DNA from: Rhodocyclaceae bacterium
Lineage (GTDB): Bacteria > Pseudomonadota > Gammaproteobacteria > Burkholderiales > Rhodocyclaceae
Reading direction: 5' to 3'
DNA: 54,077 bases
Assembly (NCBI GenBank): GCA_030682175.1
Contig: JAUXOM010000006.1
Location: 1-54,077, forward strand
Positions 29,511 through 48,468 of the stretch are shown here, one piece after another (the stretch's first letter is position 1; every line of letters starts with the position of its first letter). The position numbers were made by a program, and so were the translations under genes. Below the pieces are notes generated by a model, which worked only from the letters and a program-made list of their open reading frames with translations, did no database searches and had not been told where the DNA came from.

Positions 29511-29516
29511 TCATCG

Positions 29517-29614
29517 ATGCATTTCGCAATACCTTGAGCAATTTGCAACGATGTTTATTTACTTTATAAATCAGTCTTTTATGTCTTTATCTGCACACTA
29601 GCTGCATTTCGCAA
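29517..29614. promoter_or_regulatory. Repeated NNGC-N5-GCAA boxes upstream of the small-protein gene
   Basis: ATGC-ATTTC-GCAA (29517-29529), GAGC-AATTT-GCAA (29536-29548) and CTGC-ATTTC-GCAA (29602-29614) are alike. ATTTCGCAA also occurs at 42445-42453, and full dyads TTGC-N5-GCAA lie at 42496 and 42583, in the control region of the dab operon and sensor kinase. They are candidate binding sites for a shared activator. Confidence 0.45.
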
Positions 29615-29617
29615 CAT

Positions 29618-29653
29618 GAAACAGAAATGTCGCACATGCGATATTTCTGTTTC
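29618..29653. promoter_or_regulatory. 36-base palindrome upstream of a sigma-54 promoter
   Basis: GAAACAGAAAT (29618-29628) and ATTTCTGTTTC (29643-29653) are inverted, and inside them TCGCA-CA-TGCGA is also palindromic. Only one mismatched pair (29629/29642) breaks the 17-base arms. The centre is about 48 bases upstream of the -24 element, a possible enhancer-binding site. It is not followed by a T-run, so a terminator is unlikely. Confidence 0.55.
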
Positions 29654-29682
29654 AATTCAATAGCATAAATAGATTTTCATGC

Positions 29683-29697
29683 TGGCACGAATTGTGC
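29683..29697 (+). promoter_or_regulatory. Sigma-54 (-24/-12) promoter
   Basis: TGGCACGAATTGTGC matches TGGCACG-N4-TTGC at all positions but one, with the invariant GG and GC at correct spacing. Transcription would start near 29709, 24 bases before the ATG of the 105-residue protein. The same core (TGGCACG-N2-TTGTGC) occurs in the dab operon promoter at 42399-42415. Confidence 0.65.
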
Positions 29698-29732
29698 GTC
29701 TATTAACGTACACATCACCGAGGACCGCCGCC

Positions 29733-30050
29733 ATGAAAACCCTACTACACGCCCTGAAACGCTTCCTTGCCGCGCTGCCAAGCCATCGCGAGGCTCATCT
29801 GCAACTCGGCAGCTTCTATGCCACCTCCGGCAGCGCAGCCACAACAGAACGTCGGCTCAGTCTTGAGCAACAAGCTTCCCCTGCGGCGGGTGAAATCATG
29901 TCAACCCGTCGCGTGGCTCATCTGCAACTATTCAGCATCTACACCGAACTGGGCCGTGCGGCAAAGCTGGAACAGCGGCACGCACGCACAATAGCCGCAA
30001 CACAAAAATACAATTTGTTTGGTGAGCAAATGACGCCTGCGGCAGGATAA
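29733..30050 (+). CDS. Small protein with two similar halves (TPR-like), function unknown
   Basis: The 105-residue product has two related segments: REAHLQLGSFYATSGSAATT...PAAG (about residues 19-53) and RVAHLQLFSIYTELGRAAKL...PAAG (about 60-105). Each has the pattern AHLQL-X-S-X-Y-X3-G-X-AA, similar to one TPR helix pair. No signal peptide is seen. A sigma-54 promoter lies 35 bases upstream and a strong terminator 16 bases downstream, so it is a separate transcript. Similar control to the dab operon suggests a role in inorganic carbon response. I do not recognise the family. The Shine-Dalgarno is weak (GAGGACCGCC). Confidence 0.6.
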   Translation: MKTLLHALKRFLAALPSHREAHLQLGSFYATSGSAATTERRLSLEQQASPAAGEIMSTRRVAHLQLFSIYTELGRAAKLEQRHARTIAATQKYNLFGEQMTPAAG

Positions 30051-30065
30051 GACCGCTTCCCCCCG

Positions 30066-30105
30066 GCAAGAGGGCGCCGCAACAGCGGCGCCCTCTTGCT
30101 TTTTA
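30066..30105 (+). terminator. Rho-independent terminator after the small-protein gene
   Basis: Perfect 15-bp stem (GCAAGAGGGCGCCGC and its complement) with an AACA loop and a run of T on the plus strand. The minus-strand side lacks a T-run, so it serves the plus-strand transcript. Confidence 0.9.
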
Positions 30106-30106
30106 C

Positions 30107-31576
30107 TCAGCCCAAGCGTCCGAGCCAGGCCTCTGCGGCAGGTTGCATCAGGTCGAGAAGCAAGGCCGGGAAAAACCCGAAGAAAATGATCAGGAGCGCG
30201 AAACTCAGTGCTACCCAGAGTTCGCGCGGGCGCAAATCTTCGGCTTCGATGACTGCCTGGCGGACTGCCGGGCCGAAGAAAACGCGCCGATAGATGCCGA
30301 GGAAATAGGCGGCCCCGACCACCATGCCGAAAAGCGCGGCAAGCCCTGCGCCGGCATGACTCTTGAAGGTCGACATCAGGATCAGGAGTTCGGCGGGGAA
30401 ACCCGAAGTGCCCGGCAGACCCATGCCGGCCAAGCCGTAAAGCAGGAAGAAGCTCGCCAGCAGCGGCATGCTGCGCGCGGCGCCGCCAAGGTTGGCGATG
30501 TCGGTCGAACCGGTCCGGTGATGCAGATAGCTGGTCAACAGGAAGAGTCCGCCGGCAACGATGGAAAAGTTGAGCAGTTGCAACACGGCACCCTGCAACC
30601 CCTGCATGCTGAATGTAGCCAGCCCGAGCAGGACGAGTCCGACGTGGGAAAGACTGGCATAGGCAAGCATGCGCCGGAGATTGGTCTGTGCCAGCGCGGC
30701 GAGCGCGCCATACAGGATCGCCACCACGCCCAGGCCGGCCAACAGCCAGTGCAGATCCTGTGCGGCATCCGGCGCCAGCGGCACGGCAAAGCGAATCAGA
30801 CCATAAACGCCCAACTTCATGCCGGTCAGCAGCGCTGCCACTGCAGCCGGTCCTTCCATGGAGATCAGCGGCAACCAGGTATGCAACGGGAACACCGGCA
30901 CCTTGACCCCGAAACCGATCAACAGCAGCAGGAACACAAGGTATTGGGTACTTGCAGGCAAGGGCGTTGCCAGCAGCGTGGGCAGATCGAACACCAGCGG
31001 GCCACCGGCGGTCGCCGCGCCAAAAGCGAGGACAAGGATGCCGAAGAGCAGCGGAATTCCTCCGGCCAGCATCACCAATGTGTATTTCATCGCGGCATGG
31101 CGGCGGTTGGCACCGATGCCCCAGAGGCTCACCAAAAAGTACAGCGGCACCAGGGTAAATTCCCAGAAGAGGAAAAACAGCACCGTATCAAGTGCGCAAA
31201 ACACCCCCAGGGTGGCCGTCTCAAGCAACATCAACAGGCTGTAGTAAAGCCGCGGTAGCGTATGCACGCTGTTCCAGGAAGCAAGTATGACGCCGATGAA
31301 CAGCAGCACCGCAGCCGGCAAGAAAAGGATCGAGATGCCGTCGACGCCAACCATGTAGTGAACATTGAGGCTCGGAATCCAGTCGTATTTCTCAACCAGC
31401 TGAAACCCCGGTTGTTTGGGATCGAAAACAAACACCGCCACCAGCGCGACGACCAGATCAATCAACGCCGTGGCGAGCGCAATGCCGCGCGCCCAGCCCG
31501 GTCGCGGCAACAGCCAGGCGAGTAAAGCACCGGCGGGCAGGGTCAGAAACAGCAGGGAAAGCAGGGGGAAGCTCAT
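30107..31576 (-). CDS. NuoM/MrpD-like proton-translocating subunit of the dab operon
   Basis: The 489-residue protein has about 14 TM helices and the NuoM signature: FWEFTLVPLYFLVSLWG with the key Glu, and GFGVKVPVFPLHTWLP with the key Lys. Such antiporter-like subunits move protons in complex I and Mrp. No other complex I gene is present. As the last gene of the usp-sulP-dab operon, it probably joins the DabA-DabB assembly. The ATG at 31576 follows GGAGGTGGC. A repeat element lies in the 114-base gap upstream. Confidence 0.82.
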   Translation of the reverse strand: MSFPLLSLLFLTLPAGALLAWLLPRPGWARGIALATALIDLVVALVAVFVFDPKQPGFQLVEKYDWIPSLNVHYMVGVDGISILFLPAAVLLFIGVILASWNSVHTLPRLYYSLLMLLETATLGVFCALDTVLFFLFWEFTLVPLYFLVSLWGIGANRRHAAMKYTLVMLAGGIPLLFGILVLAFGAATAGGPLVFDLPTLLATPLPASTQYLVFLLLLIGFGVKVPVFPLHTWLPLISMEGPAAVAALLTGMKLGVYGLIRFAVPLAPDAAQDLHWLLAGLGVVAILYGALAALAQTNLRRMLAYASLSHVGLVLLGLATFSMQGLQGAVLQLLNFSIVAGGLFLLTSYLHHRTGSTDIANLGGAARSMPLLASFFLLYGLAGMGLPGTSGFPAELLILMSTFKSHAGAGLAALFGMVVGAAYFLGIYRRVFFGPAVRQAVIEAEDLRPRELWVALSFALLIIFFGFFPALLLDLMQPAAEAWLGRLG

Positions 31577-31690
31577 GCCACCTCCGCCGGGCCGTCCCAA
31601 GGAGGCGGCAAGTCAACGCACCGGAAGGCGCAACGCGCCTGAACACACGTCACCCCCTTCCGGGGGAAGGGGGCTGGGGGGAAGGGGGAT
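31577..31690. repeat. GC-rich repeat element inside the dab operon
   Basis: The gap between two NuoM-like genes starts near GCCGGGCCGTCCCAAGG, which is like the reversed right end of the 6818, 17342 and 49956 elements, and ends with a C-run/G-run inverted segment (CCCCCTTCCGGGGG). It ends right at the ribosome binding site of the next gene. Confidence 0.5.
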
Positions 31691-33199
31691 TTATCCATGG
31701 CCAAATCGCGCGGCAAGTGCCTTGAGGGTGGGCTCGATCAGGTTGAGCCAGGGTTCAAAGTAGAAACCCGCCAGTAACAAAACCGCGACGACAATGCCAC
31801 CCACCAGATATTCCATTGGCAATGTACGTTCGATGGCGGACGCCCGCCCCTCCTGGCGCGGTGCCAGGAAGGCCTTCTGAAATGCCCAGAGCAGAAAGCC
31901 CGCGGCGATGACGTTGCCGAGCGCCGCCGCGACTGTCGGCAATGCGCCAAAGCGCTCCATGGCCGCTTCAAGCACGAAATGCACGGCATCGAATCCCGGC
32001 GTGCCGGGCATGCCGACAATGGAAAACCCGCCGATGAGAAAGCAGAGGGCGATGAATGGGATCCGCTCGAACAAGCCGCCAAGTTTGTCCAGGTCGGTGG
32101 TGTTGGTACGCCGAAAAACGAAACCGACCATGAACAGCATCACCGTCACCGCCAGCCCGAAGTTTACCGACAGCAGCACCGCACCGGTCAGGCCAAGCGG
32201 ATGAAGGGAGAATATGCCGATGACAATGAGCCCGGTATGGCTGATCACGGCAAAGGACAGCAGACGGCGCAGGTTGGTTTGCAGGAAAGCGAGGATCGCT
32301 GCATAAAAAACACCGGTCATGGCAAAGGCAACGATGGCGTTTTGCCAGGCCTCCACCGCCTCCGCAGTCAGCGGCAGGAGGAACCGCAGCATGCCGTAGA
32401 TGCCGATCTTGACGCCCAGCAACAGCGATGGGGCAATGGCAACCATGCCACGATGCGCGACGGGTGGCAGCCAACCGTGCAGGGGGAACAGGGGAGTACG
32501 CACTGCCAGACCGAAGAACAGCAGAAAAAAGGCGATTGACTGAAAGCTTCCCCGCGCCGGTTCCTTGACGAGGTCAAACAGGTCGAAGCTCCAGTGGCCG
32601 GTAACGCTGGCATGGTGCCAGGCGAGGACAATCACGCCGCCCACCAGAAGCAGCACGCCGACACCCTGAAACTGCAGGAAGCGGGTCATGGCCAACAGGC
32701 GATGTTCCCGGGTTGATGTCGACCAGTGGCCGATCAGATAGCCGGCGACGGCGAGTTCGACCACCGAAAACATCACGAACCACATGAGGTTCATCGTGAC
32801 CAGCGTCGTCATCAGTGCTGCCTCGGCCAACAGGATCAGCGCCATCAAGCGGCCGGGTTGAGCCAGTCCGCGCACCAGGCCGTAGAGTGTCATCAGCACG
32901 GCGATCAGCGCTGCCAATAAAACAAACAGGACCGTGATGCCGTCGGCGGCGGCATGGTAGCCGAGCCCCCATGCCCCCTCGACACGCTCGGCCATTTGCA
33001 GTGCCGGCGTTGTCGCGTCGATATGCCGATAGAGAACAAAGCCGAGCCACAACTCGGCCAGTGCAACAACACGACCCAGAGCCACGGCAACGGTGCGTTC
33101 GCCCAGTGCAAGAATGATGATCGCGCCGGCGAGCGGCAACAACTGCAGCAACGCAAGAATTGGCCAGCTGGCCTGCTGTGTCCAGAGAATTTCGGTCAC
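31691..33199 (-). CDS. Divergent NuoM/N-like membrane subunit of the dab operon
   Basis: The 502-residue protein has about 14 TM helices and the proton-conducting antiporter fold of NuoM/NuoN/MrpD. The Glu is kept (SVVELAVAGYLIG), but the Lys of the usual VK-P motif is Arg (LAVRTPLFPLHGWLP), so it is a divergent paralogue. The start is GTG at 33199, preceded by GGAGGTTGGGTC and overlapping the stop of a 32-codon gene (GTGA). It probably belongs to the DAB assembly; ion specificity is unknown. Confidence 0.8.
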   Translation of the reverse strand: MTEILWTQQASWPILALLQLLPLAGAIIILALGERTVAVALGRVVALAELWLGFVLYRHIDATTPALQMAERVEGAWGLGYHAAADGITVLFVLLAALIAVLMTLYGLVRGLAQPGRLMALILLAEAALMTTLVTMNLMWFVMFSVVELAVAGYLIGHWSTSTREHRLLAMTRFLQFQGVGVLLLVGGVIVLAWHHASVTGHWSFDLFDLVKEPARGSFQSIAFFLLFFGLAVRTPLFPLHGWLPPVAHRGMVAIAPSLLLGVKIGIYGMLRFLLPLTAEAVEAWQNAIVAFAMTGVFYAAILAFLQTNLRRLLSFAVISHTGLIVIGIFSLHPLGLTGAVLLSVNFGLAVTVMLFMVGFVFRRTNTTDLDKLGGLFERIPFIALCFLIGGFSIVGMPGTPGFDAVHFVLEAAMERFGALPTVAAALGNVIAAGFLLWAFQKAFLAPRQEGRASAIERTLPMEYLVGGIVVAVLLLAGFYFEPWLNLIEPTLKALAARFGHG

Positions 33200-33294
33200 G
33201 ACCCAACCTCCACCAGGTCGCCAGTGGCAATCGACGCTGCAACGCCATGGTTGAAGGCACGCAGAGCCAGAAGGAAAAAGGTCCGGGTTGTCAT
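33196..33294 (-). CDS. 32-residue microprotein translationally coupled between dabB and a NuoM-like gene
   Basis: A reading frame of 32 codons (MTTRTFFLLALRAFNHGVAA, then 12 more residues) exactly fills the gap after dabB. Its ATG overlaps the dabB stop (ATGA) and its TGA overlaps the GTG start of the next gene (GTGA). The ribosome binding site of that next gene lies inside it. Residues 6-24 are hydrophobic enough for a short membrane helix. The two stop/start overlaps argue that it is translated, either as a small subunit or as a coupling leader. No family is recognised. Confidence 0.5.
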   Translation of the reverse strand: MTTRTFFLLALRAFNHGVAASIATGDLVEVGS

Positions 33295-34829
33295 AGGATG
33301 ATGACGAAGGTGGCCACCACCAGCAGGATCAGGTAGCGTGGCCGTTCCAGCAGTGCCTCGAGGACCAGCAGATATTCGCCGGCACGACGCATTGCCCGTA
33401 CCAAGGGGCCGGCACCCTGCCGCATGACAAGGCGCGATTCGAAACGGTGCAGACGTTCGGCAACCCAGACGAGAACGGCGCCGGCCAGTCCGTGGCCGCG
33501 AATCACCATATCCTGCTCGGTCTCGCTGAACGCACCAGCGCGGCGCCGCGCCGGCATGCCAACGAGGTGGGCGAGCACATTGTCGTCAAAATCGCGCATA
33601 TCCCTGGCGACTGCGCGGGTCGGACGGATCAGCATGCTCACCGCCAACTGGTCAAGCCAGAAACGCTGCAGAGCGGCGGTGTACAGCCACTGCCGGCCGG
33701 CCAGCCAGGCGGGTACCCGCCTGGCTTTTTCAGTAACCAGATACATGTAGGACGGCGCCAGCAGAAACTGGTAGGCACGCCAGATCGTGTGCAGTGCCAT
33801 ATGCCAGGCAGCGACCTGGAACCAGCCCAGGCCGCAGGCGAGGAACATCAGCCCGACCTGGGTCATGGTGGCGAAAATCAGCGAGGATTTGACGTCGGTC
33901 TGGACAAGGCCCACCAACCAGCCATACAGCGCGGTCAGCGCGCCAACAACAGCGAGGGCAAGCATCACGCCTGGCGTATGCCACAACACCGGTTCGAGCC
34001 GGAGCACCAGATAGACCCCGGCATGAATCATCACCGCACCATAGAAGATGGCCGAGGACGGCGTCGGTCCCTCAAGGGCGCGGCTGATCCACACGGAAAA
34101 GGGGAATTGCGCCGACTTGATCAAGGCGGCCAGCAGGAAACCAAACAGGACCAGCCGTGCCGTGACCTTGTCGAAGGTGCCGGCATTGTCTGCCCAGTGC
34201 GCCAGCCCCGCCCACTCGACCGTGCCCAGCCACCACGCGGCAAGCGCGATGCCAAGAATGAAGCCGGCATCGCCGATGCGGTTGGTCATGAAGGCCCACA
34301 AGGCATTGTTCGTCGCCACCGGTCGATCGTAGGCATAGCCAATCAGCAGAAACGAGCTGATGCCCGCGAACTCCCAGCCGACGAAAGTCAGCACCGCATT
34401 GCCTGACAGCACGATCAGCAGCATGCCGGCGAGAAACACGCACATGAAGATGTAAAAGCGGTGGAAGCCGGGTTCGCGATGGAGATAGTGGCGCGAGAAA
34501 CGCAAGCTCACCAGGCCGACCAGCGCCACCAGTGTTGCATAGGAAAGAGACAGGCCATCAATGACAAAGGATATCGGGATGGCAAATCCGCCACTGGCGA
34601 ACCAGGTGCCGATGGCCACGTGGCCGGGCACGCCTTCGAGCAGCGCCAGCACATCAAGGCCGAGCAGTCCAAGCAGCGCGAGCCAGGCCGCACCCTCGGC
34701 GAGCCGGGCGGTGGGCGGCTCGCCGGCATCGCCCCGTGCCTGTCCGGAAAGGAGGTAAACCGTAATGCCGCCCGCCGCCAGCAGCGGCAACAGCGGAATC
34801 AGCATGACCAGGACGAACAGACAGTTCAT
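33291..34829 (-). CDS. dabB: DabB, NuoL/MrpA-like membrane subunit of the DAB inorganic carbon transporter
   Basis: The 512-residue protein has the NuoL-type TM core (FVGWEFAGISSFLLIGYAYDRP; TNRIGDAGF; SAQFPFSVWISRALEGPTP; SSAIFYGAVMIHAGVYLV in order). The C-terminal part is shorter than NuoL and lacks the long lateral helix. It forms with DabA the energy-coupled, vectorial CO2-to-bicarbonate system. Its ATG overlaps the dabA stop (ATGA), which fits a fixed two-subunit complex. Confidence 0.87.
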   Translation of the reverse strand: MNCLFVLVMLIPLLPLLAAGGITVYLLSGQARGDAGEPPTARLAEGAAWLALLGLLGLDVLALLEGVPGHVAIGTWFASGGFAIPISFVIDGLSLSYATLVALVGLVSLRFSRHYLHREPGFHRFYIFMCVFLAGMLLIVLSGNAVLTFVGWEFAGISSFLLIGYAYDRPVATNNALWAFMTNRIGDAGFILGIALAAWWLGTVEWAGLAHWADNAGTFDKVTARLVLFGFLLAALIKSAQFPFSVWISRALEGPTPSSAIFYGAVMIHAGVYLVLRLEPVLWHTPGVMLALAVVGALTALYGWLVGLVQTDVKSSLIFATMTQVGLMFLACGLGWFQVAAWHMALHTIWRAYQFLLAPSYMYLVTEKARRVPAWLAGRQWLYTAALQRFWLDQLAVSMLIRPTRAVARDMRDFDDNVLAHLVGMPARRRAGAFSETEQDMVIRGHGLAGAVLVWVAERLHRFESRLVMRQGAGPLVRAMRRAGEYLLVLEALLERPRYLILLVVATFVIIL

Positions 34830-37800
34830 GTCGTGACAGTCTCCAGAGGCCGTTCCAGCAACACCGGCGGCAAGGGCTCGCGATTACCCGCGAACCAGTC
34901 GACCGACTGCCGCACGGTCTTCACCGCAAGCTCGCCATGCCACGGCAACCAGCCGCTGACCGGGTCGAACTGGTGAATCGCCCCGCTTTCCGGGTCCTTC
35001 GCCGCAACGATCACCCAGCCGTTGCCGACCAGTTCCTGCAGCGGCGGCTGGCGCTGGTAAATGGCGGTGATGATGTCGAGCGTCTGCTCGATCACCACCA
35101 GCAGCCGCATCGCCTCGTGCACCTCGATCATCTGTTTCGGCAGTCCGGTCGCGAGGTCCGAGGATGCCCCCTGCATGACGCCGAAATAGCCGGCGACGTT
35201 ATGGGTGACCTTGCTGCCGCAGCCGAACTGCTCGTTGTTCACCGTCGAGAAGAAGTATTCCAGGCTGATGCCGGCGCCGACCGCGCCATTGATCAGCAGA
35301 TGGCGTTCGAGCACCTTGCCATCCGGGTCCTGCGTCGGATCATAGGAAATCAGGAACGAGCGGCGGTCAAAGAAGGCGCCGCGACTCATGGCGCGGCGCC
35401 CGAAAAAGGCACAGGCATTGGTGGCGTGGCCGAGTTCGGGACGCGCCTGCGACCAGTCGTTGCGGCGCGCCCAGACATGGCGCAAAGCGGCGGCCGGGTC
35501 CAGATCCAGCGGTGCCGAATAGAGCCGGCGGCAGCGTTCCTGCGCGTGGGCTTGCACCGCCTGGGCCAGGTCGCGATCGACCTGCGCAAAAGTCGGCGCT
35601 AGCGAGACGGCGATATCCTCGGTGTCGTACCAGGTGATCAGGTCATCGGTCGTATTGTGTTCGGCACCGAGAAACCATGTCGTGTCGGGTATGTCGATGC
35701 CGCGCTCGCGCATCAGCGCGCGCACTGCGGAACGATTTGCCATGGCCGCAAAGAGGCGTGCATTGGGACCGGAATGGCGACCGGCGCAGGCGCCACAATC
35801 GTAGGCCGCCAGATGCGGATTATTCAGGCTGTTGGCACCGTGGCCCATGATGACCACCAGCGGGGCAAAGCTCTGCGTCAGACCCAGGCTGGTAAGGAAG
35901 CCGGCAATCCGCTCGGCCTGTTCGCTGTCGGTAAAGCCATCGCGCGGGAACGCCGGCGTCGCCGGTCCGGCATCCGCGGCCGCATTGAGGTCGAGCCGGG
36001 TCGCCACCGGCAAGTCGAAGCCGCGGCGCAAATTGGCACTGATGCGCCCGTATGCACCGGGAGCAAATGAATGCAGCAGCGTACCGGCAAAGGCCAGTGG
36101 CGACGCCAGGATGGAGAGCAGCGTGCCACCGACCAGACGCGTGCGCGTCGTCTGATGCAGGCGGTCCTGCCAGCGCAACCGCTGCCGGTTGCGCTGGCGG
36201 TGCTTTTCAGCCACCGCCTCCGCTTCGGCACGCGGCACTTCATGCACGTTGTGCGCGGGCACGATCACTTGAGGCACCACCGGACACAGCGGCGTTGGCT
36301 CGCGGTCGTCCAGACCATAGTAATTCTGGAATACGGCAAAGTGTGCCGCGCCGCCCAGCGTTTCGAGTTGCGGATTCACCTCTTCGAGGTGACGGCGCAT
36401 GCCTTCCTCGCGGTCGTCCATGCAAAAAACCAGCTGCGCCAGCGGGCCACTATCTGACGGGTGGCCCTGCCAGCGGCCATGGTTGGCGGCGAGGCCGACG
36501 AAGATCTGTTCGCGATAGTGGCGTTCGTAGGCATTCAGCCAGACGAAGCCACGCTGATACTGGTCGAGCCGGGCAAGGCAGGCCAGCATGGTTTCGGCGC
36601 CGCTGCGACCAAGCGCGCGTAATTCGCTGCCCGGGATTCCCAGGTGCTGGGCAAGCCGGAACAATGGCCAGACCGAACGGGGCAGGCTGTGATTCGCCTT
36701 CTGCTCGACCGTGGGCGTGGCGCGCCACGCCTCGACATGCCGGGCAAGCCACACCCACAAACCGGGCACCCGTGGCAGTGCGGCATCGCCCGTAGCGGGC
36801 AGGTGCGGGGTAATCAGGTCAAGCAAGTACTCCGGCAATTCGCCGCTGTGCACGGCATGACGTACCCATAATTCGGTTGGGTGGCCAGCGAAATATTCAC
36901 CGAGTTCATTCAGGTTCGGGGCGACATTCCAGTGGCGCCGGGCGCAATCCGTAACAACCAGACTCTCCAGCACCAGCCGCACCGCAAGGTAGTCCATCAT
37001 CGCCACCGGCACATCCTTGGAACCGGCGTACCCTGGATGATTGTGGCGCCAGAGGAACATACCCGACCAGCCCGGCAGTTCCAGCGCCAGGCGCTCGAGG
37101 TAGGCAGGCCAGCGGTCTTCGGGCAAACCCAGCCGGGTCAGAATGGCAATGACACAGTCGATCGCATTGTCCGGCAGTCGCGAGATTTCGGATCGCGCAT
37201 CGGGCAAGGACTCCAGTTCCCAGAGGATGTCGCGCTGGGCGCTTGCCCGCCAGGCAGCATAGAAACCTAGTGGCCGCGCCGGATTGTTCCATGGTGCGAG
37301 GCCTTGATCGAGATGGGCGCCGAGATGACGCAGCAGGAGCGCTCGCACCCGCTCCAGGGCGTCTTCGGCGGTCAGCGCCTTGAGGAGTGCCCCCGCCGTC
37401 CAGCCAGCGCCGACTTTGTTGGCCCCCCACGCTCGCAAACCCGGCTCGCTGCCCCCCATGAAATCACCCGAAGCGGTGACGGGGGGGCTGGCGTCGGCTT
37501 GGGACGGCCCGGCGCCGACGTTGTTGGCAAGGTCACGCCACAGCGCGGCGGCGGGAGCGGCAAACCGCTGCCTGGCTTCGTCAATGCTGGCAAGGCCCTC
37601 TTCTTCACGGGCCGAAAGTTCAAGCAGTTCCTCGGGATGATCGAAGGCATGGTCGAGCTCGAAGACGTCGAGGCAGGCCGCCCAGAGATCAGCGACGCTG
37701 CGCGCTTCGCCAACTCCGCTGGCCAATAGTCGCTGCCGTGCCGCGGCGGGCACTGCGTCGGCAAACCGGGTCAGTGCCTGGCGCTCCTCGATCTGCCATT

Positions 37801-38197
37801 TCAGCAAGGGAAGTGGAATCGAGCCAAGCGGATGGAGCAGCCCCGCGCGCAGTACGTCGCGGCTGGAAATCTCCGGTGCATCCAACAGCACTTTATCGAG
37901 TTCCACACCCCAGCCCGGCGCAAGCTGAGTCAGTGCGGCATCAAGGTCGCCGGCATCGATACGGCCAACCCCATACAGACGCCGGCACTCGTCCTCGGGC
38001 AACCACGCCGTCGCACCGGTCAGCTCACTGACGGCGATCAGCGCCTTGGGAAACGGCAGGTGTTGAAAGCCATGCAGCGTGTTGTGGTGGACAAAGTCAC
38101 GGAGCGCTGCCTGACTCGGCAGAACATGCTCAAGATGATGGACGCACTGTTCCAGGCGTTGGCGAGTATCTGGCGGCGCATCAAGCTGCGGTTCCAT
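34826..38197 (-). CDS. dabA: DabA, zinc-dependent (beta-CA-like) subunit of the DAB inorganic carbon transporter, with in-frame repeat
   Basis: The 1123-residue DUF2309 protein has the DabA zinc site: Cys592 and Asp594 in FCMDDREEG (CXDXR), His786 in IMGHGANS and Cys801 in YDCGAC, 15 residues apart as in characterised DabA. It is cytoplasmic and sits on DabB, turning CO2 into trapped bicarbonate. Residues about 227-264 (NVGAGPSQADASPP onwards to ANKVGAG) are encoded by a DNA repeat (37407-37519) and are not expected in the family. It follows the NuoM-like gene by one base. Function is well supported; the effect of the insertion is unknown. Confidence 0.9.
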   Translation of the reverse strand: MEPQLDAPPDTRQRLEQCVHHLEHVLPSQAALRDFVHHNTLHGFQHLPFPKALIAVSELTGATAWLPEDECRRLYGVGRIDAGDLDAALTQLAPGWGVELDKVLLDAPEISSRDVLRAGLLHPLGSIPLPLLKWQIEERQALTRFADAVPAAARQRLLASGVGEARSVADLWAACLDVFELDHAFDHPEELLELSAREEEGLASIDEARQRFAAPAAALWRDLANNVGAGPSQADASPPVTASGDFMGGSEPGLRAWGANKVGAGWTAGALLKALTAEDALERVRALLLRHLGAHLDQGLAPWNNPARPLGFYAAWRASAQRDILWELESLPDARSEISRLPDNAIDCVIAILTRLGLPEDRWPAYLERLALELPGWSGMFLWRHNHPGYAGSKDVPVAMMDYLAVRLVLESLVVTDCARRHWNVAPNLNELGEYFAGHPTELWVRHAVHSGELPEYLLDLITPHLPATGDAALPRVPGLWVWLARHVEAWRATPTVEQKANHSLPRSVWPLFRLAQHLGIPGSELRALGRSGAETMLACLARLDQYQRGFVWLNAYERHYREQIFVGLAANHGRWQGHPSDSGPLAQLVFCMDDREEGMRRHLEEVNPQLETLGGAAHFAVFQNYYGLDDREPTPLCPVVPQVIVPAHNVHEVPRAEAEAVAEKHRQRNRQRLRWQDRLHQTTRTRLVGGTLLSILASPLAFAGTLLHSFAPGAYGRISANLRRGFDLPVATRLDLNAAADAGPATPAFPRDGFTDSEQAERIAGFLTSLGLTQSFAPLVVIMGHGANSLNNPHLAAYDCGACAGRHSGPNARLFAAMANRSAVRALMRERGIDIPDTTWFLGAEHNTTDDLITWYDTEDIAVSLAPTFAQVDRDLAQAVQAHAQERCRRLYSAPLDLDPAAALRHVWARRNDWSQARPELGHATNACAFFGRRAMSRGAFFDRRSFLISYDPTQDPDGKVLERHLLINGAVGAGISLEYFFSTVNNEQFGCGSKVTHNVAGYFGVMQGASSDLATGLPKQMIEVHEAMRLLVVIEQTLDIITAIYQRQPPLQELVGNGWVIVAAKDPESGAIHQFDPVSGWLPWHGELAVKTVRQSVDWFAGNREPLPPVLLERPLETVTT
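37407..37519. repeat. Palindromic repeat inserted in frame in dabA
   Basis: It begins GCGCCGACTTTGTTGGCC, has the CCCGGCTCGCTGCCCCCC block and ends GTCGGCTTGGGACGGCCC, as do the units at 17342-17539. It is flanked by GCGCCGAC-TTTGTTGGC and, after it, GCGCCGAC-GTTGTTGGC (37512 on), like a duplicated end. It leaves the dabA frame open on the minus strand, where it reads as Gly/Ala/Pro-rich peptide. Confidence 0.85.
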
Positions 38198-38198
38198 A

Positions 38199-39662
38199 TC
38201 AGGCTCCGAAGTACTGCGCCAGCCGCGCTACCGAGGCCCCGAAAAGATTAAGCGCCGGGGCGGGGAAGAGGCCAATGGCGACAATGCCGAAGGCAAGTGC
38301 GGCGGCCGCCGTCATCTCGGTGCGGCTCAGGTCGGGCACACTTTTCATGGTTGCGCTGACCGGTCCGGTAAACAACCGTCCGACGGTACGGAAAGCATAG
38401 GCGGCACTGATCAGGAGCGATATCGACAGGAATACCATCCACAAACCCCAACGCGCAAAACCGCCAATCAGCGCGTGCAACTCCGCGATGAATCCTGCCG
38501 TGCCCGGCAAACCGACAGCTGCCGTGAGCGCCAGCACCATGAAGAAGGCGAACCGCGGCATCGTCCGCACCAGGGAGGCGTAGTCGCCGATATCACGCGT
38601 ATGCGTACGCTCGTAGAGCAGGCCAACCAGAAAGAACAGCGCACCCGCAACCAGGCCGTGGGCGATCATCTGCATCGTCGCACCGGCAAACCCGGCGGGA
38701 TTGAGCGCGGCAATGCCCAGCAGCACCACCCCCATATGGCTGATCGATGAATAGGCGATCATTTCCTTGAGGTCGCGACTGCGCCAGGCCAGCACACCAC
38801 CGTAGATCATGCTGACGAAGGCCAGCGTGACGAGCAGCGATTGCAACGCCAGGGCCGCGCCGGGCAAGGTCTCGACCGCGCGCAGGAGACCATACGAGCC
38901 CATCTTGAGGAGGATGCCCGAGAGCAGGATCGACACGGCGCTGGGCGCCTCGACGTGGGCAAGTGGCAACCAGCCATGCAGAGGGAAGATCGGCATCTTG
39001 ACGCCGAAACCGATCAACAAGCCGAGGAAAATCCAGACCTGCGTCGCCACCGGCAAACCCGGCGCCGCCGCGGCAATCGCGCTCATGCTGAAACTGTGCG
39101 CTGGCACCACATCGTAAAGCAACAGGATCGCCAGCAGCATGAACACCGAACCGCCCATCGTATAGAGCACAAAATTGAGTGCCGCCTTCTGCCGGCGCTG
39201 GCGGTTCTGTCCACCCAGGCGGTCAATCAGGAAAAACAGCGGGATCAGTGTCAGTTCCCAGAAAACATAGAATAACGACCAGTCGCGTGCCATGAAAACA
39301 CCCAGCATGGCGGTCTCAAGCAGCATAAGCAGCGAGAAGTAAAACTTGGCGCCCTGCTTGACGTTAGCCGAAGCAACCACCGCCACCGGCATCAACACGG
39401 TCGCCAGCAGGATCAACGGCAACGAAAATCCATCAACGCCGAGAGAGAAACTTGAGCCGAGGCGCTCATGCCAGGCATGGACTTCGTAAAACTGAATGCC
39501 GGCATCGGCCGGATCAAAATGGGCCAGCAGTGACCAGGCAAAGGCCGCTACCACAAGTGTCGCCAGCAGCGCTATCCGACGGATCAAGGCGGGGTCGCGC
39601 ACCGGCAGCAAGGCGATGATGAAGGCGCCTGTCAGTGGCAACAGCAACAGTGTACTCAGCAT
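38199..39662 (-). CDS. NuoM-like proton-translocating subunit upstream of dabA
   Basis: The 487-residue protein has about 13-14 TM helices and the full NuoM signature: FWELTLIPLFFLIDRLGG (Glu), GFGVKMPIFPLHGWLP (Lys) and SGILLKMGSYGLLR (Lys). It is the most NuoM-like of the four antiporter-type proteins in this operon. It lies 1 base before dabA and 49 bases after sulP. It likely adds a proton path to the DAB complex, by analogy with complex I and Mrp. Confidence 0.82.
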   Translation of the reverse strand: MLSTLLLLPLTGAFIIALLPVRDPALIRRIALLATLVVAAFAWSLLAHFDPADAGIQFYEVHAWHERLGSSFSLGVDGFSLPLILLATVLMPVAVVASANVKQGAKFYFSLLMLLETAMLGVFMARDWSLFYVFWELTLIPLFFLIDRLGGQNRQRRQKAALNFVLYTMGGSVFMLLAILLLYDVVPAHSFSMSAIAAAAPGLPVATQVWIFLGLLIGFGVKMPIFPLHGWLPLAHVEAPSAVSILLSGILLKMGSYGLLRAVETLPGAALALQSLLVTLAFVSMIYGGVLAWRSRDLKEMIAYSSISHMGVVLLGIAALNPAGFAGATMQMIAHGLVAGALFFLVGLLYERTHTRDIGDYASLVRTMPRFAFFMVLALTAAVGLPGTAGFIAELHALIGGFARWGLWMVFLSISLLISAAYAFRTVGRLFTGPVSATMKSVPDLSRTEMTAAAALAFGIVAIGLFPAPALNLFGASVARLAQYFGA

Positions 39663-39711
39663 CCGCGAATATTAACATCTGCGAATATTGCTGATCAGCA
39701 GCAATTTAAAT

Positions 39712-41883
39712 TCAGTCATAACCGGCGTCGGCGACCAGCGCCGGGCGCGTGGGCGGCACCGCCAGTGCCCGGGGAATGGGGCGCAACGCATCCTGCGCGT
39801 CGACATTTATTGTCACTTCCGCGTAGATTTTCTCAAGCGCCTGATCGGATGTGGCGAAAAAACATTCTTCGCCAATCGTTTTGCTCAGACCCGTTGCACG
39901 AATGACATCGAGTACCTGTTTCTTGAATCCGGAGAACAGCAATATCACACCGTTTTCATGCAACCGCTCGACCAGGTGATGAATGACTTCCTCACCGGAC
40001 GCATCGATCTCGTTGATGCCATCGCAGACAACCAGCAAATAGGGCGCTTCGGGATTGGCCGCCACAGCCTCGAGTATGGCGTCCTCGAAGTAAGACACAT
40101 TGGCGAAATACAGCCGGCCATCAAAGCGCACCGCGGTGACGATGTCGGAGGCGGGCAGGTTGTTCACCTTGACGTCGCGCAAGGTACCGTCGCGATAACG
40201 ACCGAGGATGGCAACCCGCGGCGTCATGGTGCGATAGAGATAAAGCACCAGAGCCAATCCAGCGCCGACCATGATGCCCTTGTCCAGGTGGGGCGCAAAC
40301 GCCAGGGTACTGACAAAGGTCACGACGGAGGCGATGCCGTCATGCTTGTTCACCAGCCAGGCATGCTTGATCGCGCCAAAGTTGATCAGACCGACAACAG
40401 CCATGATGATTACAGCCGCCAGCGCCGCCTGCGGCAGGAAATAGAGCAGCGGCGTCAGGAACAGCAAGGTCAGCAGCACGATAAGGCCGGTGAACACCGC
40501 CGACATGCCGGTTCTGGCGCCGGCGTTGAAGTTCACCGCCGAGCGCGAAAAAGAACCTGACACGGGAAAGGCCTGGGTCGCGGCACCGACAATATTGGCC
40601 AGGCCCTGGCCAATCAGTTCCTGATTGGGGTCGACCTTCTCCTTGATCTTGGCGGCGATGGCCTTGGCGATGGAAATTGCCTCCATGAAGCCCACCAGGG
40701 AAATCACCAAGGCTGCACCGATCAGGCTCTTGATCATTTCCCAGTTTAGCGTCGGCATTTTGAGCGAGGGCAGCCCCTCGGGAATCTTGCCGATGACATC
40801 ACCACCGCCAACGAGCTTGAAGCCGCCGTCCTTGACGCCGCGTACGTGATAAGTCGCGCCATCGTCTTGCCAGCCGGCCGGCAACCGGCTTGCCGCATAA
40901 ATTCCGACAAACCGCCCCTGATCGTCCATCGCGCGAACCACCTGAACGCTGCGCAGGGACTTTTTCAACTCGGCAGCCTCCATTTCAAATATTTCGACGG
41001 AAATTCGCGTCGTTTCAAGAATGGCGTCGCGCGTCACCGCCTCAACGCTGTGGTCGCCTCTGATCTTGTGCGCCTGCCTGGCTTCGGCTGCGGTTACCGC
41101 CACGACCTTGTTGGCATTGTCGATCCGCCGGTTGGCTTCCGCCTGGCGGGTGACCAGGGCCTTGAGTTCCTGGTCGGCAATTTGCTCGATCGTGCCATAA
41201 GCGTTTCTCTCGAAGTGCAGCGCCCATGAGGCGACACTGGTCACCACCACGGCAATCAGTACACCTGGCAACCTGGGCGCCCACTTGCGTGCAGACCAAA
41301 TTAGGAGGATTGCCACAACCCCCATCGCCAGGGTCGGCAAATGCGTATCCCCTGCCTGCGTCATAACCCCCCAGATATCCACGATGAACGACTCCGAACG
41401 GCTCATGGAAACACCCAATAACTTGTTAACCTGGGACAAGCCGATAATCATCGCGGCGGCGTTGGTAAACCCGACAATCACCGGGTGGGAAAGAAAGTTG
41501 ACGATTACGCCGAGCTTGAAAATGCCGAGGGTGAGCTGGATGGTCCCGACCAGCAATGCCATCAGGATTGCCAGGGCAATAAACTGCTCGGAACCCGGCA
41601 CGGCAAGCGGCGCCAATGCTGATGCCGTCAGTAACGATACAACGGCAACCGGACCGGTACCGAGTTGACTGGAAGACCCCCACAGGGAGGCAACCATCAC
41701 CGGCAGGAAGGCGGCATACAGGCCATAGTAGGCGGGCAGGCCGGCCAATTGGGCATACGCCATGGATTGCGGCACTAGCACCAGTGCCACCGTCAAACCG
41801 GCAAACAGATCCGCCTTGAGCGTTTCCCGGCTTAAGGGGAACCAGCCGAGAAAGGGCAATAGTTTTTTTATCGACAAGCTCAT
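39712..41883 (-). CDS. SulP-family anion transporter with STAS domain and a large TM7-TM8 loop insertion
   Basis: The 723-residue protein has the SulP core (ADLFAGLTVALVLVPQSMAY; FMEAISIAKAIAAK; DPNQELIGQGLANI) and a C-terminal STAS domain (RFDGRLYFANVSYFED; EIDASGEEVIHHLV). About 140 residues (224-362), partly Ala/Glu/Arg helical, are inserted before GKIPEGLPSLKMP, in the loop expected outside the membrane. SulP members carry sulfate or, as BicA, bicarbonate; in the dab operon, bicarbonate is more likely. The ATG is preceded by AGGA. A close paralogue lies at 45749. Confidence 0.87.
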   Translation of the reverse strand: MSLSIKKLLPFLGWFPLSRETLKADLFAGLTVALVLVPQSMAYAQLAGLPAYYGLYAAFLPVMVASLWGSSSQLGTGPVAVVSLLTASALAPLAVPGSEQFIALAILMALLVGTIQLTLGIFKLGVIVNFLSHPVIVGFTNAAAMIIGLSQVNKLLGVSMSRSESFIVDIWGVMTQAGDTHLPTLAMGVVAILLIWSARKWAPRLPGVLIAVVVTSVASWALHFERNAYGTIEQIADQELKALVTRQAEANRRIDNANKVVAVTAAEARQAHKIRGDHSVEAVTRDAILETTRISVEIFEMEAAELKKSLRSVQVVRAMDDQGRFVGIYAASRLPAGWQDDGATYHVRGVKDGGFKLVGGGDVIGKIPEGLPSLKMPTLNWEMIKSLIGAALVISLVGFMEAISIAKAIAAKIKEKVDPNQELIGQGLANIVGAATQAFPVSGSFSRSAVNFNAGARTGMSAVFTGLIVLLTLLFLTPLLYFLPQAALAAVIIMAVVGLINFGAIKHAWLVNKHDGIASVVTFVSTLAFAPHLDKGIMVGAGLALVLYLYRTMTPRVAILGRYRDGTLRDVKVNNLPASDIVTAVRFDGRLYFANVSYFEDAILEAVAANPEAPYLLVVCDGINEIDASGEEVIHHLVERLHENGVILLFSGFKKQVLDVIRATGLSKTIGEECFFATSDQALEKIYAEVTINVDAQDALRPIPRALAVPPTRPALVADAGYD

Positions 41884-41917
41884 CGTTGCATCCTGTGGGT
41901 CATGGTCATGGGTTGAA

Positions 41918-42301
41918 TCAGTCCTGGTTCGGTTCGATCATTACCAGCGGACAGACCAGCTTGCGCCAGGGACTGGCGGATTTGCTGGTGCCGCCAACAT
42001 TGCCGCTGTCGCGGAAAGCAATCACCACGGTGGTAATGCACTCGTGTGAGTTGGCATAGCTGACGATTTCCCGTGGCCCCATGTCCGGCATGCAGGTCAG
42101 CGTACAAACTACGCCGGCCTGGTGTAACTCCTGCACAAAGTCAGTCATGGTGACGGGCAATTTATCGCCGCCGTCGGGAACGAGAATATCGAGTCCCGCA
42201 TCCATGCGTTCACACAGGCTTTGCGCCGCAGCCAGCAAACGCCGGGTGCAATGAGCCACGCTGGTGGCGAGCAACAGCTTGCGCCCGGGACGCGCTCCCA
42301 T
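41918..42301 (-). CDS. Universal-stress-protein-like small protein heading the dab operon
   Basis: The 127-residue protein begins GRKLLLATSVAHCTRRLLAA and ends KLVCPLVMIEPNQD, the alpha/beta pattern of UspA-type domains, but the ATP-binding G-2X-G-9X-G(S/T) motif is incomplete. It is cytoplasmic and first in the usp-sulP-nuoM-dabA operon, 34 bases before sulP. It may be a nucleotide-linked regulator of the transporters. The ATG at 42301 is chosen; a GTG lies one codon earlier. The sigma-54-type promoter is about 100 bases upstream. Confidence 0.6.
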   Translation of the reverse strand: MGARPGRKLLLATSVAHCTRRLLAAAQSLCERMDAGLDILVPDGGDKLPVTMTDFVQELHQAGVVCTLTCMPDMGPREIVSYANSHECITTVVIAFRDSGNVGGTSKSASPWRKLVCPLVMIEPNQD

Positions 42302-42398
42302 CACGGCTCAATCATTCGGCAACAAACGGCGGGGGTAGTGGCAATCATTCCGTGGTTATGCACATCAGGTGTTCAGCAATCAGCTGGCTGGAATTACC

Positions 42399-42415
42399 AT
42401 GCACAAGGCGTGCCA
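42399..42415 (-). promoter_or_regulatory. Sigma-54 (-24/-12) promoter of the usp-sulP-dab operon
   Basis: On the minus strand TGGCACGCCTTGTGCAT fits TGGCACG-N4-TTGCA with one mismatch and the correct GG-GC spacing. It differs from the 29683 promoter core (TGGCACGAATTGTGC) only in two spacer bases. The predicted start is near 42389, giving an 88-base leader before the Usp-like ATG. Confidence 0.62.
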
Positions 42416-42495
42416 TACCCAAGTCAGCCACGCAAGCCGCTGATATTTCGCAAACTATTGCGCTGCACACTTCCGCCATTCTGACGATAATGTTG

Positions 42496-42508
42496 TTGCA
42501 TGCTGCAA
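42496..42508. promoter_or_regulatory. TTGC-N5-GCAA dyad (candidate activator site)
   Basis: TTGCATGCTGCAA is an inverted repeat about 85 bases upstream of the minus-strand sigma-54 promoter, a normal distance for an enhancer site. Confidence 0.45.
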
Positions 42509-42582
42509 TGCGTCATAGCCTAAGCCGTGCAGGCCCCTGCTGCACCGGGAATATTGACTGATTGCATTAGGCACGCTGACTA

Positions 42583-42595
42583 TTGCATAATGCAA
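42583..42595. promoter_or_regulatory. Second TTGC-N5-GCAA dyad, upstream of the sensor kinase gene
   Basis: TTGCATAATGCAA, extended to ATTGCAT-A-ATGCAAT, lies just before the kinase ATG at 42617 and covers an alternative in-frame ATG at 42590. It could mediate autoregulation. Confidence 0.45.
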
Positions 42596-42616
42596 TTCAT
42601 CTCGCCGGACCCCTGC

Positions 42617-44083
42617 ATGAACTCACTACGCCAGAAGCTTTTTTTCGGATATGCCACCATCGTTGCGCTGGTCGTCGCGCTCTCGCTGCTTTCGCTTATC
42701 GAGCTGCGGCTGCTCGAGCAGAAGATTGTCGCTGGCGAGCGCATTTCACAGTTCTTCGATATCTCCCTGGAGATTCGCCGTTTCGAGAAGAATTACTTTC
42801 TCTACCATCAGGACGAGGACCTCGCGGAGAATCGCGCCTATGTTCACCGCGCCAGAGCCTTGCTCGCCGAGCACGCCGACGTTTTCACCGTGCTCAGCAA
42901 TGTTGCCCGGGTGACGAAACTTGGCGACGACCTTGATCGCTATGCCACACTCATAGACCAGTACGCTGCAGACTCAACGGCAAGTGGTGGCGCGATTGCG
43001 GGTCGCATTCGCGCCATCGGCAAGGAAATAGTGACCATCGCCGAGGACTGGTCCAGGGTAGAGCGCAAGGAATTGCAGGCACAACTCGACCAACAGCGAC
43101 TGATACTGTTCGGCTCGGTCTCCTGCATTGGCCTGGCGGTGATTGCCATCGGCGGTTTGCTGGCGCGGCGAGTACTCCGCCCGCTCAAGGAGATGGAGCG
43201 CAAGATGAAGGAGGTGGCCAGCGGGCATCGGGCCAAACTCGAGATGTCAAGCGAGGAACGCGAATTCAAGTCGCTGACGCGCGCCTTCAATCACGTCCTT
43301 CACGAGTTGGAGGCACACCAGCGGCAACTCGTACATTCCGAAAAACTCGTCGCCCTCGGTACCCTGCTTTCCGGTGTGGCACACGAACTCAACAACCCGC
43401 TATCGAATATCGCCACTTCAACCCAGATTCTCGCCGAAGAAGCTGATGGAGAAGGCGCCCCGGATGGGGCTGTTGCCTTCCGGCGCGAATTGATTACCCA
43501 GATTGACGAGGAAACCTGGCGGGCCCGGCACATCGTGCGCTCACTGCTCGACTACGCGCGTGACCGCGATTTCCACCACGAGGCTTTGCCTTTGGCAGCG
43601 TTGGTCGAGGATACATTGCGGCTGATCCGCGGACAAATTCCGGCTTCCATAAAAATTGTCGTGCAGATTCCCGAAACCCTCGCGGCTTCCGGCGACCGCC
43701 AGCGGCTGCAGCAGGTACTGCTCAATCTGGTGCGCAACGCCGCCGACGCAATGCCCGATGGCGGCGAGGTGCGCATCGTGGCCCGGCTAACGCGTGAACC
43801 GTGCCTGGCACAACCGCCGGAGCGTCTGGTCTTCGGTCAATGCACCGGCGAGGACGAGGCACTTGAAATCGTCGTGGGGGACAACGGCAGTGGCATTGCG
43901 CCCGCAACCCTGCCGCGCGTTTTTGATCCATTTTTCACCACCAAGGACGTCGGCAAGGGGATGGGGCTGGGCTTGTTCATCGTGTTTGAAATCATCGAGG
44001 AGCATGGCGGCTGCATCGCGGTCGAAAGCAAAGCCGGCCGCGGAACCACTTTCACCATTCGTCTGCCTCTGGAGAAGTCATGA
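42617..44083 (+). CDS. Membrane sensor histidine kinase with periplasmic helical domain
   Basis: The 488-residue protein has two TM helices flanking a helical periplasmic sensor (about residues 35-170, with RRFEKNYFLYHQDEDL) like the four-helix/HBM type, then HAMP, an H-box (SGVAHELNNPLSNI) and an HATPase domain (GDNGSGIAP, GMGLGLFIVFEI). The ligand is unknown; bicarbonate, CO2 or another small anion would fit the surroundings. It overlaps the NtrC-type regulator by 4 bases (ATGA), so they are a cognate pair. The ATG at 42617 is preferred to 42590, which lies in an operator-like dyad. Confidence 0.88.
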   Translation: MNSLRQKLFFGYATIVALVVALSLLSLIELRLLEQKIVAGERISQFFDISLEIRRFEKNYFLYHQDEDLAENRAYVHRARALLAEHADVFTVLSNVARVTKLGDDLDRYATLIDQYAADSTASGGAIAGRIRAIGKEIVTIAEDWSRVERKELQAQLDQQRLILFGSVSCIGLAVIAIGGLLARRVLRPLKEMERKMKEVASGHRAKLEMSSEEREFKSLTRAFNHVLHELEAHQRQLVHSEKLVALGTLLSGVAHELNNPLSNIATSTQILAEEADGEGAPDGAVAFRRELITQIDEETWRARHIVRSLLDYARDRDFHHEALPLAALVEDTLRLIRGQIPASIKIVVQIPETLAASGDRQRLQQVLLNLVRNAADAMPDGGEVRIVARLTREPCLAQPPERLVFGQCTGEDEALEIVVGDNGSGIAPATLPRVFDPFFTTKDVGKGMGLGLFIVFEIIEEHGGCIAVESKAGRGTTFTIRLPLEKS

Positions 44084-45521: not shown

Positions 45522-45748
45522 CATGGGGACGGCGTCAGCCGCCTCGCCCAACAGGGGGACGACGACGCCTCAAGCGAATAGAGGGCGCCAATGAAACTCA
45601 TAATATAGCTTTATCCTAATATACGATGGGGCGCGCTAAAATGCGTCACTTTTTGCAACGCCTCCGCTGTTTTCCGCAGCGAAACCGGTGAGTTATTTTC
45701 TGGCCGGAGGTGGCGCGATTTTCCGACATCACCCGCCGAATCGACCCC
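45439..45748. other. Intergenic region upstream of the second sulP
   Basis: The left part is repeat-derived. From 45590 to 45660 the DNA is AT-rich (CATAATATAGCTTTATCC and on), which suits a promoter for sulP2. No clear sigma-54 element was found. A GTG at 45710 is an alternative start for sulP2. Confidence 0.5.
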
Positions 45749-47905: not shown

Positions 47906-47946
47906 ACCCCCCTCCCATCAAACAGGATTCCACCAAGGAGATTTTC

Positions 47947-48468
47947 ATGTCACTCACCGGCACCACCAGGGAACTGCTTATTCCCCTGGCCGATTTTCCG
48001 CATGTCCGCAGCGACTTATCATTGCGCGATGTCTTTGCCAAGATGCATGCCCTTTCCGGCACGGCAGAACTTTTTCGCAACGTTCTGGTGGTCGATGACA
48101 AGGACCGATTGATCGGCATACTTGGCCTGAAAAACCTGCTGAACGCCCTGCTGCCGGAGTATCTGAAAACCGCGTCCCATTTCGAGGGTGCCGGAGAAGA
48201 TCTCAGCAGCCTGGCCGCGCTGTGGCAGGATGATTGCGAGGAAGCCTGCCGCTCGGCCCACAAGATTATTGTCAAGGACCATGTCACGCCGGTATCCGCA
48301 ACCATCAAGATCGATGACCCGCTGACCATAGCCGTATTCCTCTTCGCTACCACGCCAGCCAACATATTGCCGGTGATGGACAACAAACGATTGGTCGGTG
48401 TGCTGCGTCTGGTCGACCTGTTCGACGAAGTGACCAGCGAAGTTCTCTGCCAGCAGGTGACACGATGA
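47947..48468 (+). CDS. CBS-domain-pair protein
   Basis: The 173-residue soluble protein has two CBS-like units (FRNVLVVDDKDRLIGILGLK and NILPVMDNKRLVGVLRLVDL). CBS pairs bind adenine nucleotides and regulate transporters and channels. It lies between the second SulP and the SLC13 symporter, overlapping the latter by 4 bases (ATGA), so it probably controls one of them. AAGGAG precedes the ATG. Confidence 0.82.
   Translation: MSLTGTTRELLIPLADFPHVRSDLSLRDVFAKMHALSGTAELFRNVLVVDDKDRLIGILGLKNLLNALLPEYLKTASHFEGAGEDLSSLAALWQDDCEEACRSAHKIIVKDHVTPVSATIKIDDPLTIAVFLFATTPANILPVMDNKRLVGVLRLVDLFDEVTSEVLCQQVTR

Follow-up and report, generated by a model that had tools for sequence, protein, structure and literature searches.

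In the window, the whole stretch of 54,077 nucleotides from a Rhodocyclaceae bacterium analysed here, a sigma-54 circuit consisting of a two-component system, palindromic enhancer sites and two promoters most probably raises the expression of a SulP-DAB operon and of a gene for a small protein. Judged from sequence, the circuit looks complete, lies beside carbon-uptake genes and is retained by several relatives; carbon uptake would thus probably be induced by a route for which we found no description.

Two sigma-54 sites and the genes they face

Sigma-54 promoters follow the consensus TGGCAC-N5-TTGC, with GG and GC 10 bases apart. Two such sites were located in the window: TGGCACGAATTGTGC lies at 29683-29697 on the plus strand (promoter, 29683..29698) and is assigned to the small-protein gene, while TGGCACGCCTTGTGC lies at 42415-42401 on the minus strand (promoter, 42400..42415) and is assigned to the SulP-DAB operon. 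Both assignments are based on the pattern match, on uniqueness in the genome and on the relatives. From the start of the plus-strand site it is 50 bp to a downstream ORF of 105 codons (29733-30050), and from that of the minus-strand site 111 bp to the operon's first ORF (42304-41918). Both sites have GTGC instead of TTGC at -12, and neither upstream region showed a sigma-70-type site directed at the target genes. When the whole genome (3,493,354 bases in 153 contigs, 99.74% complete) was scanned with the core TGGCACG-N2-TTGTGC (13 fixed bases), a check proposed in an earlier note on this DNA, only two matches were obtained, and both are these promoters (reversed-pattern control, 0). With up to two mismatches to the core, 3 matches were found in the window against a shuffle mean of 2.9. 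Since this is chance level, only the exact match is unusual; two-mismatch sites were rejected, and the case rests on the exact match and above all on conservation. The earlier note had also stressed the near-identity of the two sites. The exact core is indeed unique in the genome, but the shared spacer bases are incidental: in orthologous sites these bases differ and GG-N10-GC is the conserved element, so near-identical spacers were dropped as evidence.

The first operon ORF (41918..42304, minus strand) encodes a 128-aa protein that is conserved at about 120-128 aa and has no Pfam assignment. Its previous designation as 'usp' is unsupported, since none of the four proteins scanned gave a Pfam Usp match at E<=5. 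Further genes follow on the same strand, encoding a SulP transporter with STAS domain (SulP1, 39712..41883; PF00916, PF01740), a NuoM-like antiporter subunit (38199..39662; PF00361), a DabA of 1123 aa (34826..38197; PF10070, E 1.1e-224), a NuoL-like (DabB-like) subunit (33291..34829; PF00361, PF00662), a second NuoM-like subunit (31691..33199; PF00361) and a NuoN/M-like subunit (30107..31600; PF00361). The usp-sulP-dab operon described earlier as facing the minus-strand site is thus correct for SulP and DabA, but has to be amended by the four NuoL/M/N-like subunits around DabA. Four separate NuoL/M/N-like matches, unlike two-gene DABs, were also seen in 58/80 named DAB loci (the best 80 of 392).

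The zinc-site residues of DabA are present (C592, D594, R596, H786 and C801), and the protein aligns through them to the solved DabA2 9rd0_A (E 1.3e-65). An excerpt of PMC13144422 gives Cys351, Asp353, Arg355, His524 and Cys539 as the zinc-site residues of DabA2. With a PF10070 protein carrying beta-CA-like zinc residues and an adjacent NuoL-like partner (33291-34829), the locus can be classed as a putative DAB/DAC. DabA residues ~206-298 resemble short pieces dispersed in this and in sister genomes (<=91% identity over 47 aa), which suggests a dispersed repeat inside dabA.

The second promoter is preceded by a gene for a CsoSCA-like carbonic anhydrase (28437-29510; Pfam E 9.5e-8), which carries CxDxR and H-x9-C motifs. 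No other carboxysome family was detected among the 19 window proteins scanned. A carbonic anhydrase homologue was observed in 12 of the same best 80 of 392 DAB loci.

Kinase, regulator and rpoN

The kinase/NtrC pair at 42617-45438 was confirmed, as was the GAFTGA motif that had been ascribed to it. In a domain scan, the sensor histidine kinase (42617..44083, plus strand) showed HAMP, HisKA and HATPase_c, and the response regulator (44080..45438, plus strand) showed Sigma54_activat (PF00158), Response_reg (PF00072) and HTH_8 (PF02954), which together with GAFTGA places it in the NtrC family. By the NCBIfam test it is neither AtoC nor ZraR, because its best scores (452 and 412 bits, respectively) lie below the model cut-offs of 714 and 760. 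Across the five aligned regulators, the DNA-binding domain does not vary at residues 425-447. For rpoN, one match was found in the genome, and the gene is present in 19/19 genomes of the genus. The genes downstream of the regulator (45710-49943) code for another SulP (SulP2) and for a transporter of the DASS family. Next to the regulator, SulP2-like matches were found repeatedly in relatives, and DASS matches in a smaller number of them.

Conservation of the operon promoter in relatives

A DabA search matched 22/61 genomes, several of them only weakly or via the repetitive stretch, and the nine best relatives were taken further, with G026, G036 and G030 outside the promoter comparison. The kinase/regulator pair lies beside the operon in four of the nine (G009, G008, G005 and G011), each of which has a -24/-12 site in the orthologous position. 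In G014 and G001 no regulator match at E<=1e-170 was found, and the DNA upstream of their sulP1 match (~185 bp and 600 bp, respectively) held no site scoring >=9.5 with our sigma-54 matrix, which has approximate weights built on the consensus.

Regulator orthologues were found in 28/395 genomes of the family (E<=1e-170), and the neighbourhoods of 25 of these 28 were examined (G188, G260 and G335 were left out). Regulator-operon intergenic regions could be compared for the genome of the window and 20 relatives. Four neighbourhoods fell outside these 21 regions: the kinase is not divergent in G013, the operon is absent from the piece in G022 and G201, and G091 has a 2.1 kb gap; in the last three, sites were nevertheless found in the DNA scanned. 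A site scoring >=11 with a 4-base spacer was present in 20/21 regions, compared to 2/21 with a spacer of 2 bases, 0/21 with 3, 2/21 with 5 and 3/21 with 6, the relatives not being independent samples. In 19/21 regions the site scored above dinucleotide shuffles of the same region (p<0.05), the exceptions being G066 (p 0.15) and G128 (p 0.10). Those of G005, G011 and G028 read TGGCATG. The two sigma-54 promoters proposed in the earlier note are supported by this conservation, by co-occurrence with the regulator and by the palindromes described below.

Candidate enhancer palindromes

Palindromes of the form TTGCA-N3-TGCAA, which the earlier note had missed, precede the -24 element by roughly 90 and 180 bp. 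At the operon promoter, the proximal copy (42496..42508) is 93 bp and the distal copy TTGCATAATGCAA (42583..42595) 180 bp from the -24 element. The latter is also 21 bp from the start codon of the kinase gene; perhaps it is autoregulatory as well, in which case the regulator may control its own transcription. Upstream of the small-protein gene, an enhancer-like site TGCATTTCGCAAC (29603..29615, plus strand) lies 80 bp upstream of the -24 element. It is the only match to TGCATTNNGCAAC in the genome (reversed control, 1) and has counterparts in relatives at -75 to -91. The distal copy TGCATTTCGCAA (29518..29529, plus strand) is a 12-base exact direct repeat of the site at 29603, and its counterparts in G009 and G008 are found at -167/-168.

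Among the 21 intergenic regions, 28 copies of TTGC-N5-GCAA occur in 19 (shuffle mean 0.6, maximum 5), an exact copy being absent in G008 and G021. Counted between start positions, the distal copy precedes the -24 element by 155-199 bp (169-189 bp in 17/19 regions), and nine regions have a second, proximal copy at 91-102 bp. The distal copy is also close to the kinase gene, 2-48 bases from where the kinase match begins (19/21 regions). A two-site enhancer arrangement is a requirement of NtrC-type activators, and from their placement the palindromes can be considered candidate enhancer sites.

An 18-bp inverted repeat (29617..29654) occupies the interval between enhancer and promoter of the small-protein gene. 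Its pairing is largely kept in two relatives: among the three sequences, 4/17 pairs are changed on both sides with pairing kept and 4/17 are broken in one sequence. Perhaps it marks the transcript end of the upstream carbonic anhydrase gene.

Co-occurrence of the regulator with enhancer and promoter

A combined enhancer-plus-promoter pattern, chosen after inspection of the same regions, was found in 14/28 genomes with the regulator and in 51/367 without it (p 1.8e-5). As a control, the pattern with a spacer one base too long was found in 3/28 and 45/367, respectively. Half of the 28 regulator-bearing genomes thus miss the strict pattern. Where it was present, it lay at the operon promoter in 7/14 (G000, G009, G028, G064, G070, G082 and G124), at the small-gene promoter in 6/14 (G005, G007, G011, G190, G206 and G325) and outside these two targets in one (G401). 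In the genome of the window, two further matches (C61 and C133; control, 1) were taken as chance, and none of eight TGGCACG-N4-TTGC sites (reversed control, 5) had a palindrome upstream.

We also searched named DAB loci from GTDB genomes (the best 80 of 392), with a threshold of >=60% identity for the regulator. Palindrome and promoter were found together in 8/9 loci with the regulator and in 2/71 without it (p 1.4e-8), where absence means absence on the sequence piece and 28/80 pieces reach 23 kb. Three of the nine (L050, L051 and L055) are the already used G009, G008 and G005, and L051 passed the pair test at the small-gene promoter only. Of the six new regulator-bearing loci, again among the best 80 of 392, five have enhancer and promoter: a Nitrosomonadales MAG (L059), a Tepidiphilus MAG (L074) and three Magnetococcales MAGs (L118, L122 and L129). 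The sites of L059 and of the Magnetococcales are off consensus (TGGTAC, TGGAAC; CGC at -12). Thiobacillus sp. UBA3361 (L060) has the regulator at 61% identity, yet no enhancer-plus-promoter pair. The two matches without a regulator on the piece (L103 and L109) come from Methylococcaceae, are identical in place and sequence, and are probably due to chance.

The small-protein gene as probable second target

The second predicted target encodes a 105-aa protein with a GExxSxRRxAHL motif (29733..30050, plus strand) and is followed by an intrinsic-terminator-like hairpin of 16 pairs, 12 of them G-C (30065..30100, plus strand). Away from the main locus, occurrences of the combined pattern in regulator-bearing genomes pointed to small ORFs of the same type, most of which have a third SulP gene after them or the carbonic anhydrase before them. 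The small ORF begins 38-55 bases after the site start in nine genomes, including that of the window. No site was found upstream of the third SulP in 3/12 genomes tested (G154, G346 and G028). Eight of the nine small proteins have a short motif around GELLSxRRKAHLL in common, and that of G190 is divergent.

A profile of the small protein (A4) was built from eight pieces of seven genomes, all found at these promoters. It matched 10/395 genomes, nine of them with the regulator. The profile had been built without G009, G013 and G006; among its matches only G013 and G006 were new, and G190, also left out, was not recovered. Both new homologues (2/2) have enhancer and promoter just upstream. G006, 87% complete, gave no regulator match at E<=1e-170.

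The regulon appears to extend beyond DAB

The DAB operon was found in 5/25 neighbourhoods (that of the window, G009, G008, G005 and G011). In 11/25 (G206, G070, G154, G190, G007, G064, G346, G401, G082, G325 and G091), SulP is followed by NuoM/N-like matches (23-38% identity), and the remaining 9/25 have neither arrangement or end too early. Family assignments were made for three of the eleven: G007 has HyfB-like and HyfE-like proteins, G082 has NuoH-like, HyfF-like and NuoCD-like ones, and G091 has NuoM-like, NuoH-like and NuoCD-like ones. None of the four NuoCD-like proteins read (G064, G007, G082 and G091; two identified by family scan and two by similarity to those) has a CxxC motif. By this test they are not hydrogenases, and the assignment of the relatives' operons to Group 4 hydrogenases was rejected because the Ni-Fe CxxC motifs are absent (0/4). 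A SulP gene followed by hydrogenase-4-type genes, with a NuoCD-like protein without CxxC and the same promoter type, was observed at L184:2969-9865 and L185:2336-9998. In G028, the first ORF is followed by one for a TauE-type exporter with Usp domains.

Since 5/25 neighbourhoods have the DAB operon and 11/25 have SulP with hydrogenase-4-type genes, the regulon is wider than DAB. It appears to comprise a SulP transporter, frequently joined by an ion-coupled membrane complex, and DAB would be one form of this complex. The sigma-54-controlled inorganic carbon regulon of the earlier note is partly supported, as a shared regulon that includes carbon-uptake genes. RuBisCO was rejected as a member: around its three matches in the genome, which have LysR-type neighbours as judged by eye, no pair of sigma-54 site and palindrome was found at score >=12 (20.8 kb).

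Proposed mechanism and alternatives

We propose that 42617-45438 encodes a membrane sensor kinase and its NtrC-type activator. Once phosphorylated, the activator would bind the palindromes upstream of both promoters and, by hydrolysing ATP, would cause the sigma-54 polymerase to open the DNA there. The promoter at 42415 would drive the first ORF, sulP1, dabA and the four antiporter-like subunits, and the promoter at 29683 the small protein, which is found repeatedly behind promoters of this type. The circuit would most likely raise CO2 and bicarbonate uptake when inorganic carbon is scarce. Inorganic carbon as the signal is plausible, a guess made from the target genes.

The promoters and the regulator could be real and the signal another anion or the energy state, for instance sulfate or membrane potential, which SulP, DASS and proton-coupled complexes would serve. 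Sulfate, too, is carried by SulP and DASS families, and SulP2 and the DASS transporter are encoded downstream of the regulator. In relatives, hydrogenase-4-type genes take the place of DAB behind SulP (11/25), and in G028 the TauE-type exporter follows the first ORF. Against this, the DabA encoded in the window operon has intact zinc-site residues, the second promoter adjoins the gene for a CsoSCA-like carbonic anhydrase, and RuBisCO is encoded in the same genome. We regard another signal as possible, but less likely than not.

The adjacent NtrC-type regulator is the likely activator of both promoters, as the earlier note had suggested; conservation, co-occurrence and palindromes at near-fixed distances all argue for this. 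If another enhancer-binding protein activated them, and the adjacent regulator acted elsewhere, one would not expect promoter and palindrome to track this regulator across genomes, nor a palindrome within 48 bases of the kinase gene in 19/21 regions. Candidates for such a protein exist (30-230 loose, unconfirmed regulator relatives in the 48 genomes listed), and the incomplete G006 has a small-gene promoter without a regulator match at threshold, but we consider this improbable. That the sites are functionless GG-N10-GC matches, as the shuffle-level two-mismatch count in the window might suggest, is hardly credible given an exact core found nowhere else in the genome, spacer-specific conservation in 20/21 regions, near-fixed palindrome distances and 8/9 positive regulator-bearing DAB loci against 2/71 (best 80 of 392).

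A bolder version of the proposed circuit is a widespread sigma-54/NtrC regulon for inorganic carbon uptake, covering Rhodocyclaceae, Tepidiphilus, Nitrosomonadales and Magnetococcales, in which DAB and Ni-Fe-less hydrogenase-4-like complexes are interchangeable behind the same promoter and the small protein is a helper. We offer it as speculation and think it rather unlikely. If true, hydrogenase-4-like complexes without a nickel-iron site would be an unrecognised class of ion-driven CO2/bicarbonate pump.

Comparison with known systems

To our knowledge, little is known about the induction of DAB pumps in chemolithoautotrophs. Sigma-54/NtrC control is a known mechanism, the use of which on DAB we did not find described: none was among the matches listed in open-licence full text, which agrees with what the earlier note had supposed. 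Excerpts of PMC5328954 and PMC2621215 mention sigma-54 regulators, not for carbon uptake. The terms 'sigma', 'two-component' and 'response regulator' are absent from the main texts of PMC12628692 and PMC10880623, which deal with carbon-uptake regulation and a carbon toolkit, respectively. The candidate activator, its enhancer sequence and the two promoters provide a directly testable handle on the control of a DAB pump. In addition, two unexplained items become tied to carbon uptake, namely the recurring small protein and the hydrogenase-4-like complexes without a hydrogenase site.

Sigma-54 two-component regulons of the NtrC type include those of NtrC, ZraR, AtoC and HupR/HoxA. Like the regulators of NtrC/NtrB-type regulons, the window regulator has a receiver, an AAA+ domain with GAFTGA and a Fis-type helix-turn-helix, and the paired palindromes ~90-180 bp upstream of a -24/-12 promoter resemble the enhancers described for this family. 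The targets differ, as in the window and its relatives they are SulP with DAB or with hydrogenase-4-type genes. With DabA2B2 of Halothiobacillus neapolitanus the window shares the DabA-family C, D, R, H, C zinc-site residues and a NuoL-like partner; it differs by the 1123-aa DabA, by the four antiporter-like subunits and SulP in the gene row, and by the sigma-54 site that precedes the operon. The LysR-type regulators of carbon fixation, CbbR and CmpR, are not known to be sigma-54 dependent. Here too regulators adjoin carbon genes, including the LysR-type genes near RuBisCO, whereas the genes bordering the two window promoters are not LysR-type. Finally, excerpts describe a hyfBCEFGI cluster with a non-hydrogenase catalytic sequence in A. 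ferrooxidans (PMC7735108) and, for A. caldus, a hyf island adjoining a carbonic anhydrase (PMC3826726), the missing hydrogenase site being stated for A. ferrooxidans only. The complexes of the relatives resemble these in their HyfB-, HyfC-, HyfE- and HyfF-like proteins and in a NuoCD-like protein without CxxC, but they lie behind SulP and have the same promoter type as the one that precedes the DAB operon of the window.
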